From Synechococcus lacustris (lineage in GTDB: Bacteria > Cyanobacteriota > Cyanobacteriia > PCC-6307 > Cyanobiaceae): a DNA stretch of 64,000 nt. Below are positions 2,394 through 5,944 of this stretch, piece by piece. A model generated the notes under the pieces. It made no database searches and was not told the origin of the DNA. It saw only the letters and a program-made list of their open reading frames with translations. Location: the NCBI GenBank assembly GCA_903943975.1, contig CAJAQB010000008.1:1-64000 (forward strand), in the 5' to 3' direction. Both the position numbers and the translations under genes were made by a program. Numbering within the stretch: the stretch's first letter is position 1; the number at the start of each line of letters is the position of its first letter.

Positions 2394-2672
2394 TCAGGCC
2401 TCTGTTTGGGCCAGGGGGCTGATGCTTGGTAGGGGGCTGAGGCTGAGGTTCTCTGGGTCCAGTTGCTGGATTTCCTGGGTCACCTGTTGCAGTACTTCTA
2501 GGCAGCGCTGTTCGTAAACCATCGCCTCTGCATACAGCTCCGGCAGCTGTTCGATCTCCAGTTCTTCGTTCTGAAGTTGCCCCAAGGTGCGTTCCAGGGC
2601 CCCTTGGGCTTCGGCATAGCTCAAGGGCTTGCTAGGGCTGGGTTTGCTTTTCTTGGCTGCAGCGCTAGCCAT
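2394..2672 (-). CDS. xseB: Exodeoxyribonuclease VII small subunit
   Basis: 92 residues. The core SYAEAQGALERTLGQLQNEELEIEQLPELYAEAM pattern is the XseB helical hairpin that binds several copies of the long C-terminal helix of XseA. The exonuclease VII complex degrades single-stranded DNA in both directions in repair. A Lys/Ser-rich N-terminal leader (residues 1-16) precedes the fold, and the tail after residue 75 is dispensable-looking. The ATG overlaps the stop of xseA by one base (TGATG), the usual translationally coupled xseA-xseB pair. Confidence 0.93.
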   Translation of the reverse strand: MASAAAKKSKPSPSKPLSYAEAQGALERTLGQLQNEELEIEQLPELYAEAMVYEQRCLEVLQQVTQEIQQLDPENLSLSPLPSISPLAQTEA

Positions 2673-3826
2673 CAGGCTTCCCCGTTTGTTTCAGGTTGCC
2701 ATGCCTGAACGGAAAGCTGCAGGACCCCATCGCTGAGCTGGGCGCTGATCGCCGTTCCTGGTTTGAGGCCTGCGCCGCGGCGCAGCACCTGGCCCTGGCC
2801 ATTGCGCAGGATGCTGTAGCCCCGGCGCAGTAGCCGCTCAGGGGCAAGGGCCTTGAGCAGGGCCGTTTGTCCGGCCAATTGCAGTTGGCGTCTTTCCAGG
2901 CAGCGGTGGGCGGCCCAGCGCCGCCGTTCCCCCTGGCGGCCAGCCAGCAGCCGTTGCCGTTCCCGTTGCAGGGCTCCGCTGATTTGCTGGCGCCAGAGCC
3001 GGCTCAGTTGATCCAGTTGCAGGATCTGTTCCTGGCGGTGGGGTAGCAGGGCCACCAGGGCCGCCGTCGGCGTGGCAGCTCGATGGTCGGCGACCAGGTC
3101 GGCCACGGTGATGTCGTCCTCATGGCCGATGCCGGTGACCACCGGCACCGGGCAGCGGGCCAGGCAACGGGCCAGTTGCTCGCCGTCAAAGACCGTTAGG
3201 TCTTCACGGCTGCCACCGCCCCTGGCCAGCACTACTGCCTCAATGCCCAGGGCCTGCCAGTGCTGTTCCAGCTGTTCCAGCACCCGACAGATCTCGGCTT
3301 CTACGTCCCCTTGCACGGGAATTGCCACCACCCGCAGGGCGCAGGCGGGCCAGCGTTGCTGGGCCGTACGCAGCAGGTCTGCCAGGGCAGAGCTGGGCAC
3401 GCTGGTGAGCAGGGCAATCGCCTTGGGGAAACGCGGCAGGGGCCGTTTGCGTTCCAGCGCCAGGAGGCCCTCGGCGGCCAGGAGCGCCTTAACGCTTTCA
3501 AAGCGCCTCAGCACCGTGGAAAGGCTGGGGCGCACGTCCAGCACTTGAACGCTGAGGCTGGCCCTGGCCGCCCAGAAATTCAGTTTCCCCACCACGGTGA
3601 CCCCATCGCCGTCCTGGGGGCGATAGGCCAGGCGGCTGAGGGTGGAGGCCCAAACCACGGCCGGGATCGAGGCATCGCCATCGCTGAGGCTGAGCCAGAG
3701 GTGGCCCTTTTTCAGCACCGGTTTGATCACGGCGGCTTCCAGCAGGAAGCGGGGGGCAAAGCCTCGGTCCAGCAGCAGGCCAATTGCTTCGTTGAGCTGG
3801 CGAACCGAGTAGCTGGGCAGCTCCAT
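2672..3826 (-). CDS. xseA: Exodeoxyribonuclease VII large subunit
   Basis: 384-residue catalytic subunit of exonuclease VII. Residues 1-95 form the N-terminal OB-fold that grips single-stranded DNA (SYSVRQLNEAIGLLLDR start). The central nuclease domain carries the family's RGGGSREDLTVFDGEQLAR block near residues 203-221, followed by PVVTGIGHEDDITVADLVADHRAATPTAA. A coiled-coil C-terminal part binds XseB. It is shorter than the ~450 residues of E. coli XseA, as is common in marine cyanobacteria. ATG at 3826 begins the OB-fold directly. It is followed by xseB with a one-base overlap. A HIP1 octamer (GCGATCGC, 3847-3854) lies just upstream. Confidence 0.95.
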   Translation of the reverse strand: MELPSYSVRQLNEAIGLLLDRGFAPRFLLEAAVIKPVLKKGHLWLSLSDGDASIPAVVWASTLSRLAYRPQDGDGVTVVGKLNFWAARASLSVQVLDVRPSLSTVLRRFESVKALLAAEGLLALERKRPLPRFPKAIALLTSVPSSALADLLRTAQQRWPACALRVVAIPVQGDVEAEICRVLEQLEQHWQALGIEAVVLARGGGSREDLTVFDGEQLARCLARCPVPVVTGIGHEDDITVADLVADHRAATPTAALVALLPHRQEQILQLDQLSRLWRQQISGALQRERQRLLAGRQGERRRWAAHRCLERRQLQLAGQTALLKALAPERLLRRGYSILRNGQGQVLRRGAGLKPGTAISAQLSDGVLQLSVQAWQPETNGEA

Positions 3827-3976: not shown

Positions 3977-4123
3977 TCAGCCGAGACCCAGCTGGGAAAG
4001 GACGCCTTGGCCGGTCAGCAGTTCGGTGCCTAGGCCGATCACGAAGCCGAGCATGGCCAGGCGGCCATTCCAGGTTTCAGCAAAACCGACGAAGCCGAAG
4101 CGGGATTGGTTGGTGTCAGCCAT
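3977..4123 (-). CDS. hli: High-light-inducible protein (single-helix chlorophyll-binding)
   Basis: A 48-residue protein beginning MADTNQSRFGFVGFAETWNG. It contains the chlorophyll-binding helix motif ETWNGRLAMLGFVIGLGTE, in which Glu16, Asn19 and Arg21 match the conserved ExxNGRxAMxGF signature of high-light-inducible (small CAB-like) proteins. These one-helix thylakoid proteins bind chlorophyll and carotenoid and protect photosystem II assembly intermediates under excess light. The short tail after the helix is typical. It has its own downstream terminator, so it is probably monocistronic. ATG at 4123; the upstream gene is divergent. Confidence 0.92.
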   Translation of the reverse strand: MADTNQSRFGFVGFAETWNGRLAMLGFVIGLGTELLTGQGVLSQLGLG

Positions 4124-4176: not shown

Positions 4177-5070
4177 TTGACAGTGTTGGGCGATACCTGG
4201 GGCGACTATCTTCGTTTGACAGCCTCTGGACTTCGGTTTAAGCAGGGGATTCCCCGGAGGCTGAAGCCCTTGGCCAGTCGCGCCCGCTTCCAGGCCCAGG
4301 TGCAGGTGGCCCTACCCCAGGACCCCAGGCTGGTACTGGTTACAGACCTGGACGGCACCCTCTTGGCCGGTGACCCCCAAGAGCGTCAGTTTCTTTATCG
4401 CTGGCTGGCCGACCGGCGGGAGCAGGTGCTGCATATTTACGCCACCGGTCGGGAGCTGCGCTCGATTGCCGCCCTCTTCCATGACCCTGAGCACCCGGAA
4501 TTGCGCCAGCCCCATCTGGTGATCAGTGATGTGGGCTGCACCGTGGCCTGTGGCGAAAGCCTCCAGGTGGTGCCGATGCTGGTGGAGCCGATTGAGGCGC
4601 TCTGGGGCCCCTGTGCCCCGCGGGTGCGGGCCCTCACCGACGGCCAGCCTGGCCTGAGTCCCCAGCCGCTGTGGAGCCAGAGGCGCCATGCCTTCTATGC
4701 CGATCCGGAGTTGCTTGATCCGCTGCTCCTAGAACGGCTGGCCCTGGAGGGGGTTGATTGCCTGTTTTCTGATGGCCGCTATCTCGATGTGCTGCCCGCC
4801 GGGGTGAACAAAGGCAGCACCCTGCAACGGGTGCTCGCTTTGCTGGAGCTGGAGGGGGTGCCGGTGCTGGTGGCCGGCGACAGCCTCAACGACCTGGCGA
4901 TGTTTGAGGCGGGCTATCCGGGGGTGATGGTGGGCAATGCCGAAGCAGCCCTGCGGGCCCAGTTGCCCCAACTCAGTAATACCTATCTGGCCCGCGCCCA
5001 TGGCTGTGGCGGCATCCTGGAGGGCCTGGCCCATTTTGGTTTTGGGCCGCTGCTCTCCCCGCTGGTTTGA
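4177..5070 (+). CDS. HAD-IIB sugar phosphatase (sucrose-phosphate-phosphatase-like)
   Basis: 297 residues of the HAD superfamily, subclass IIB, closest in layout to the sucrose-6-phosphate phosphatase/glucosylglycerol-phosphate phosphatase group. Motif I is DLDGTLL near residue 56 (nucleophile and acid/base Asp), motif II is in the ATGR segment near 89, the Lys of motif III is in GVNKGSTL near 213, and motif IV is GDSLNDLAMF near 235. A C2 cap lies between. The TTG start at 4177 is uncertain: the first ~45 residues are not needed for the fold and a later start is possible. It is followed, one base after its stop, by a SemiSWEET sugar carrier, which suggests a sugar or compatible-solute phosphate substrate. 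The exact substrate (sucrose-6-P, glucosylglycerol-P, glucosylglycerate-P) cannot be read from sequence. Confidence 0.82.
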   Translation: MTVLGDTWGDYLRLTASGLRFKQGIPRRLKPLASRARFQAQVQVALPQDPRLVLVTDLDGTLLAGDPQERQFLYRWLADRREQVLHIYATGRELRSIAALFHDPEHPELRQPHLVISDVGCTVACGESLQVVPMLVEPIEALWGPCAPRVRALTDGQPGLSPQPLWSQRRHAFYADPELLDPLLLERLALEGVDCLFSDGRYLDVLPAGVNKGSTLQRVLALLELEGVPVLVAGDSLNDLAMFEAGYPGVMVGNAEAALRAQLPQLSNTYLARAHGCGGILEGLAHFGFGPLLSPLV

Positions 5071-5071
5071 G

Positions 5072-5371
5072 ATGAATTCGTCAGTACAGCTTCTCGGTTA
5101 CGGCGCTGCGCTGCTCACCACCTGCAGCTTCTATCCCCAGGCGATCAAGACGCTGCGCACCAATGAAACCCGGGGGATTTCCCTGCGCATGTATCTACTC
5201 TTCACCCTGGGGATCACGGGCTGGGGGGTCTACGGCTATCTGAATCGGGACTGGCCGGTGTTTGCGGCCAATCTGGTGACCTTCCCCGCCTCGGCGGCGA
5301 TCCTGGAACGCAAGCTCCAAGCCCAGTGGGCCCTACGCCGCCAACGACAACAGCAGGGCAAACAGGGCTGA
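5072..5371 (+). CDS. SemiSWEET-type sugar transporter
   Basis: 99-residue, three-helix membrane protein. Helix 1 contains CSFYPQAIKTLRT, the PQ motif characteristic of SemiSWEET/PQ-loop carriers. Next come the charged TNETRGISLRMY loop, helix 2 (LFTLGITGWGVYGYL) and helix 3 (PVFAANLVTFPASAAILE). SemiSWEETs dimerise to give a bidirectional, facilitative sugar channel. The start ATG at 5072 lies one base after the stop of the upstream HAD sugar phosphatase, so the two are almost certainly one transcript. A longer in-frame ORF starts at 4937 inside the phosphatase, but the ATG at 5072 gives the canonical family N-terminus. Membrane location and family are clear; sugar specificity is not. Confidence 0.87.
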   Translation: MNSSVQLLGYGAALLTTCSFYPQAIKTLRTNETRGISLRMYLLFTLGITGWGVYGYLNRDWPVFAANLVTFPASAAILERKLQAQWALRRQRQQQGKQG

Positions 5372-5539: not shown

Positions 5540-5944
5540 TCAGCGCACGTGGCGGGTGCCATCGACCGGGTGGTACACCTCCCCGGTGGTTTCCTCAAAC
5601 ACGATCGCCGGCAGCCCCGTTTCAAACATGGTCTGGATCGCCTCCTTCAGGTAGGGATTCCAGCCTCCGGTGGACACCTTGCCGTGGCGCACGGTCCAAT
5701 CCCAGGTGCCCTGGAGGTCCCTGGGGATGCGGCCTTCCCGGTCCCGGCGGGCCACCAGGTCTTGGGATTCCACCAGGCCCACCAGGATCGGATCTTTGCC
5801 GTAGGCAGGGGTGATCGTTAGCTCCAGGCGTACGGGATCTTCTTTCACCAGCCTTAGCCGGAACCGCGGTGGCAGTTTCACCGCCTTGAGGACGGCCGCC
5901 ACAACCTTCGTTCTCTGATCCAACTGGACTCCTCCGGCCTGCAT
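5540..5944 (-). CDS. Conserved cyanobacterial protein, unknown function
   Basis: 134-residue soluble protein with no signal peptide or membrane segment. It is rich in charged residues and has a long, well-ordered-looking sequence with aromatic positions (TWDWTVRHG, NPYLKEAIQTMFETGLPAIVFEE). The Trp-rich centre and the C-terminal VYHPVDGTRHVR suggest a compact alpha/beta domain. I cannot place it in a named family. It stands alone on the minus strand between the SemiSWEET gene (plus) and a small membrane protein (minus, 71 bp upstream). Codon use matches the neighbours, so it is a real gene; function unknown. Confidence 0.7.
   Translation of the reverse strand: MQAGGVQLDQRTKVVAAVLKAVKLPPRFRLRLVKEDPVRLELTITPAYGKDPILVGLVESQDLVARRDREGRIPRDLQGTWDWTVRHGKVSTGGWNPYLKEAIQTMFETGLPAIVFEETTGEVYHPVDGTRHVR

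Follow-up and report, generated by a model that had tools for sequence, protein, structure and literature searches.

The phosphatase gene and the SemiSWEET gene that follow each other in the window (the whole 64,000-nucleotide stretch of Synechococcus lacustris DNA analysed here) form a real, lineage-specific pair and probably an operon, which by itself does not demonstrate that the SemiSWEET exports the sugar made by the phosphatase. We consider it probable that a HAD phosphatase descended from the GgpP type acts here as a sucrose-6-phosphate phosphatase, that the SemiSWEET gene was relocated once to the position behind it and became coupled to it, and that the role of the SemiSWEET is independent of the sucrose pathway.

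The contig of the window (C8) belongs to a Cyanobiaceae genome (G000) of 2.47 Mb in 23 contigs, which is 95% complete. From left to right, the gene order in the window is BrkB, a DUF697-like protein (with a score under the Pfam cut-off), xseB, xseA, an Hli-type gene, HAD, SemiSWEET and, on the opposite strand, a conserved protein. The features around the pair are as follows:

2672..3826, minus strand: xseA, left neighbour of the HAD slot, kept across Cyanobiaceae (profile match and synteny)
3977..4123, minus strand: small chlorophyll-binding protein of the high-light-inducible (Hli) type, encoded divergently next to HAD (PF00504, 22.4 bits, cut-off 22.3)
4256..4260, plus strand: Shine-Dalgarno-like GGAGG, 9 bases 5' of TTG 4270 (from the sequence itself)
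4270..5070, plus strand: HAD-IIB sugar-phosphate phosphatase of the GgpPS-type clade, probable sucrose-6-phosphate phosphatase; the open reading frame reaches up to TTG 4177
5068..5074, plus strand: HAD/SemiSWEET stop-start junction TGA-G-ATG, probable translational coupling (sequence and junctions of relatives)
5072..5371, plus strand: SemiSWEET, 99 aa, with P22 and Q23 (PQ motif) and the pocket residues W51 and N67 (family profile, structure and homologue alignments)
5540..5944, minus strand: conserved protein to the right of the pair, separated from HAD by hrpB in other genera (synteny)

As the sequence-only reading had stated, the phosphatase gene ends one base before the SemiSWEET: its stop codon (TGA, 5068-5070) is followed by one base and then by the SemiSWEET start (ATG, 5072-5074), with both genes on the plus strand. 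The junctions of the pair genomes that we inspected either overlap or nearly abut, namely TGA-G-ATG in G000, GTGA in most genomes of g25 and TGATG in G032. These overlaps of 1–4 bases, or the 1-base gap, make one transcript for both genes likely, and HAD and SemiSWEET would be co-transcribed and translationally coupled. No sigma-70-like promoter was found in the region, a result that is uninformative for cyanobacteria. A 5S rRNA (positions 3-119) marks the start of both the window and the contig; other contigs among relatives also end about 4–5 kb ahead of HAD, probably breaking at the rRNA operon.

The HAD product is a soluble HAD-IIB phosphatase. Its gene had been placed at 4177-5070; the stop stands, and the start is probably TTG 4270, 93 bases downstream of 4177, because homologues begin near residue 32, residues 1-30 were modelled with low confidence, and a GGAGG lies nine bases upstream. 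The protein matched the PF05116 (S6PP) profile with 150.8 bits (cut-off 20.3), which indicates a HAD-IIB fold with an S6PP domain, and its catalytic motifs are complete (TDLDGT, ATGR, NKGST and AGDSLND, supplying Asp-Asp, Thr, Lys and GDxxND). The nearest solved structure was the Synechocystis sucrose-phosphatase 1s2o, both by sequence (E 1.5e-22) and by comparison of the structural model (Z 25.4; second best 19.8). On the TIGR01485 equivalog model of sucrose-phosphate phosphatase (SPP), HAD scored 87 bits, under the cut-off of 183.65, and canonical cyanobacterial SPPs scored 280–302 bits; thus, by sequence, HAD is not a standard SPP. Compared with the Synechocystis SPP (slr0953), it shares the fold and the catalytic motifs, and likely the reaction in G000, but it is about 31% identical and falls outside the SPP clade. 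The StpA/GgpP phosphatase of most glucosylglycerol-making cyanobacteria (PF09506, Salt_tol_Pase) follows a similar two-step compatible-solute logic in another protein family. We rejected HAD as an StpA-type GgpP, since it matches PF05116 and not PF09506, which is absent from the genome. MPGP-family models scored far under their cut-offs on HAD.

In the HAD tree, the phosphatase of the window grouped in one clade (100/99) with HADs adjacent to ggpS, the gene of glucosylglycerol-phosphate synthase (GgpS), and with the GgpP domain of GgpPS, in which phosphatase and GgpS are fused (represented by one row only, on a long branch), apart from the group with the proteins that pass the SPP model. Its closest relatives outside Cyanobiaceae were not SPPs. 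Four cyanobacteria (G217, G221, G247 and G291; loci L161, L158, L159 and L160) have a HAD of this clade directly 5' of ggpS, and ggpS itself scored 769 bits in G217 and 755 bits in G221. In some of these four genomes, glpD/glpK-like genes were seen near the HAD-ggpS pair. A gammaproteobacterial MAG (L055) encodes a fused GgpPS whose N-terminal domain belonged to the same clade, with 43% identity; in contrast to this domain, which is fused to GgpS, HAD stands alone in a genome without a GgpS hit. Same-clade HADs also adjoin an sqdB-like gene (named by eye) in three genomes of g77 (L162, L163 and L164), in which GgpS was not found. No StpA-type phosphatase was found in G217 and G291, so HAD would be the natural GgpP there, which suggests a second, HAD-type GG-phosphatase in cyanobacteria. 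Judged from its place in the tree, HAD descends from the GgpP type, the phosphatase that works with GgpS or is fused to it. The relatives recovered in the locus search of named genomes were distant, mostly SPP-like proteins beside genes like that of sucrose-phosphate synthase (SPS) in Rhizobiales, with one GgpPS.

Genome content points to sucrose. In G000 we found an SPS on another contig (over the curated cut-off, with an open frame of 503 aa that ends without a phosphatase domain), an alkaline/neutral invertase (GH100) and this HAD as the sole PF05116 protein, and neither GgpS (TIGR02398) nor the StpA-type GgpP was matched in the 95%-complete assembly. From this combination we infer sucrose 6-phosphate as the likely HAD substrate. 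The sequence-only reading had described a phosphatase of the sucrose-phosphate/glucosylglycerol-phosphate type, and this description held, with descent leading to the GgpS-linked HADs and genome content to sucrose 6-phosphate. The genes beside SPS in G000 showed no obvious sugar context by eye; a purT-like gene, also named by eye, converges on the SPS frame and shares about 130 bases with its 3' end (L079, G000:C14, 6755-6883).

SPS was present in 8 of the 8 pair-clade genomes with HAD and the GH100 invertase in 7 of 8, the one without it being G153 (82% complete); GgpS and StpA gave no match in four of the pair genomes (G032, G070, G119 and G153). In three congeners (G044, G080 and G105), SPS, HAD and invertase were all without a hit, an absence that is firmest for the 98%-complete G044, with G080 and G105 at 86% and 76%. 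That all three are missing together is the best argument for HAD as part of a sucrose module. Another clade member, G074 (76% complete), had a tail-less SPS and invertase with no HAD hit. Across 201 Cyanobiaceae genomes, the co-occurrence of HAD with SPS was no more than suggestive (odds ratio 2.7, p 0.06, uncorrected for descent), and that with GgpS had a p of 0.20, likewise uncorrected. HAD was found without SPS in five genomes (G103, G107, G108, G124 and G162), three of them 99% complete. Neither SPS nor GgpS was present in G108, G124 and G162, and invertase was found in G124 as fragments only, which hints at recent decay. Some Cyanobiaceae (G083 and G127) combine HAD and GgpS without StpA, and a GG-phosphate role of HAD may persist there; StpA was found in G024, G097 and G137.

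Some SPS proteins of Cyanobiaceae carry a fused phosphatase-like domain. The first Asp of motif IV was missing in every aligned domain of this kind (among SPS loci L083-L138), also in marine lines that have no HAD, which is consistent with a review that describes fused SPS phosphatase domains as usually inactive (PMC6753628). We rejected these domains as a predictor of HAD presence or absence, since the Asp is lost with or without HAD. A published 'spp' gene (CK_00002483) is reported from 42 of 67 freshwater strains, though from none of the freshwater isolates of subcluster 5.3, and, among marine strains, from RCC307 and MINOS11 (PMC9361551). This pattern, with presence in RCC307 and absence in freshwater 5.3 isolates, fits the HAD distribution, and HAD may correspond to this gene.

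A HAD orthologue (at least 52% identity) was present in 56 of the 201 genomes, SemiSWEET in 144 and both in 45. The two genes were adjacent in 8 of these 45, namely G000, six genomes of g25 and one of g33. Conservation of the pair in related genomes, raised by the sequence-only reading, was therefore seen in eight genomes of one clade and not in the other 37 with both genes, and adjacency is not kept wherever both occur. An xseA tree that included six of the eight pair genomes recovered g1, g25 and g33 as a single clade (100/99). The pair proteins of the seven further genomes are 59–73% identical to those of the window. A class-wide search recovered no other HAD-SemiSWEET neighbours among 116 genomes. 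In other genera the HAD slot lies between xseA and hrpB, and in the pair clade SemiSWEET takes the hrpB position. Because adjacency is confined to one clade and SemiSWEET sits in the hrpB slot, the only SemiSWEET was most likely relocated behind HAD once. Retention of the adjacency is no proof of selection by itself, since the whole neighbourhood is syntenic in the clade; the closely packed junction offers a stronger hint.

SemiSWEET family membership is secure. The protein scored 89.1 bits on NF037968 (cut-off 80), and aligned with the structure 4qnc; P22, Q23, W51 and N67 were invariant in nine aligned homologues. Like the Leptospira protein (4qnc) and the Bradyrhizobium one (BjSemiSWEET), it is a single three-helix PQ-loop unit with a Trp and Asn pocket; unlike them, it has a genomic partner confined to one picocyanobacterial clade. 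In a study of eight SemiSWEETs, only BjSemiSWEET was reported to move sucrose and physiological roles were unproven, and the Bradyrhizobium sucrose SemiSWEET has been tried for efflux in Synechococcus elongatus (PMC5972207). The SemiSWEET of the pair clade may still pass sucrose.

Across the 201 genomes, SemiSWEET was independent of SPS (Fisher p = 1.0, uncorrected for descent). The congeners G044, G080 and G105 keep SemiSWEET in place (in G044 and G080 next to a readable hli gene), and SemiSWEET without a hit for SPS, HAD or invertase was also found in g19 (G018 and G068) and part of g45 (G081 and G125). Since SemiSWEET is kept without sucrose genes and is independent of SPS, it must have a use besides the export of home-made sucrose. 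In other genera it overlaps a pseudouridine synthase gene (rluA-like) by 4 bases or lies 1 base from crcB (fluoride channel type), the former at L035, L037, L045 and L049 and the latter at L039, L043 and L046. SemiSWEET was rarer in genomes with GgpS (41 of 76) than in those without (103 of 125; Fisher p 2e-5, uncorrected for descent).

The sequence-only reading had gone further and taken the pairing to suggest a substrate and a make-and-export (or reuptake) role. This claim was weakened by the restriction of the pair to one clade, by the congeners that keep SemiSWEET, by its independence of SPS and by its tight partners elsewhere. We regard as rather doubtful an operon in which HAD makes sucrose and SemiSWEET releases it, as an overflow or hypo-osmotic valve, or readmits it. 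The tight stop-start coupling, the adjacency kept despite protein divergence, the sugar-pocket residues and the sucrose transport by the Bradyrhizobium SemiSWEET (PMC5972207) argue for it, but the adjacency most likely reflects one event in a neighbourhood that is syntenic anyway, and SemiSWEET is kept where SPS, HAD and invertase gave no hit, varies independently of SPS and is packed as tightly with rluA-like and crcB genes. It also seems unlikely to us, as a combined reading, that a phosphatase of GgpP descent took over the dephosphorylation of sucrose 6-phosphate for the tail-less SPSs of freshwater and subcluster-5.3-like picocyanobacteria and, in one clade, is co-translated with a SemiSWEET that acts as a release valve by letting this sucrose equilibrate across the membrane. 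There is nearly an even chance, in our estimate, that the two genes are chance neighbours, with a relocated SemiSWEET carried along behind a divergent promoter and no common metabolite. The single event that replaced hrpB and the tight packing of SemiSWEET with unrelated genes in other lineages agree with this, while the overlap or near-abutment kept across a diverged clade speaks against it, and two sugar-related genes meeting by chance would be somewhat unlikely.

Other substrates of HAD also have to be weighed. The grouping with ggpS-linked HADs and GgpPS, together with G217 and G291, where HAD adjoins ggpS in genomes without StpA, would agree with a glucosylglycerol-phosphate phosphatase beside a glucosylglycerol carrier. 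We consider this very unlikely, given the lack of a GgpS hit in five genomes with the pair (G000, G032, G070, G119 and G153) and an StpA available for GG-phosphate in G024, G097 and G137. HAD-IIB enzymes are frequently promiscuous, and HAD could act on another sugar phosphate, such as glucosylglycerate-phosphate or hexose phosphates in general, as its presence without SPS or GgpS in three 99%-complete genomes might suggest; the low MPGP-family scores and the joint loss of HAD, SPS and invertase in three congeners make this improbable.

According to the reading we favour, of a sucrose-6-phosphate phosphatase with a relocated SemiSWEET, HAD would finish sucrose synthesis after an SPS that has no phosphatase domain, and SemiSWEET would have entered the hrpB slot behind it in the ancestor of one clade. 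SemiSWEET would be a passive sugar facilitator that may pass sucrose or glucose, with a role independent of the sucrose pathway.

HAD bears on the question of how sucrose synthesis is completed in picocyanobacteria whose SPS has no working phosphatase part. One paper speculated that GG-phosphate phosphatases act as sucrose-phosphate phosphatases in Prochlorococcus (PMC11505929); HAD is an assayable candidate for a similar substrate takeover, in a different phosphatase family and in freshwater and subcluster-5.3-like lines. Finally, the pairing provides a rare native context for testing bacterial SemiSWEET function, and the sister lineage that has the transporter without the sucrose genes provides a natural control.
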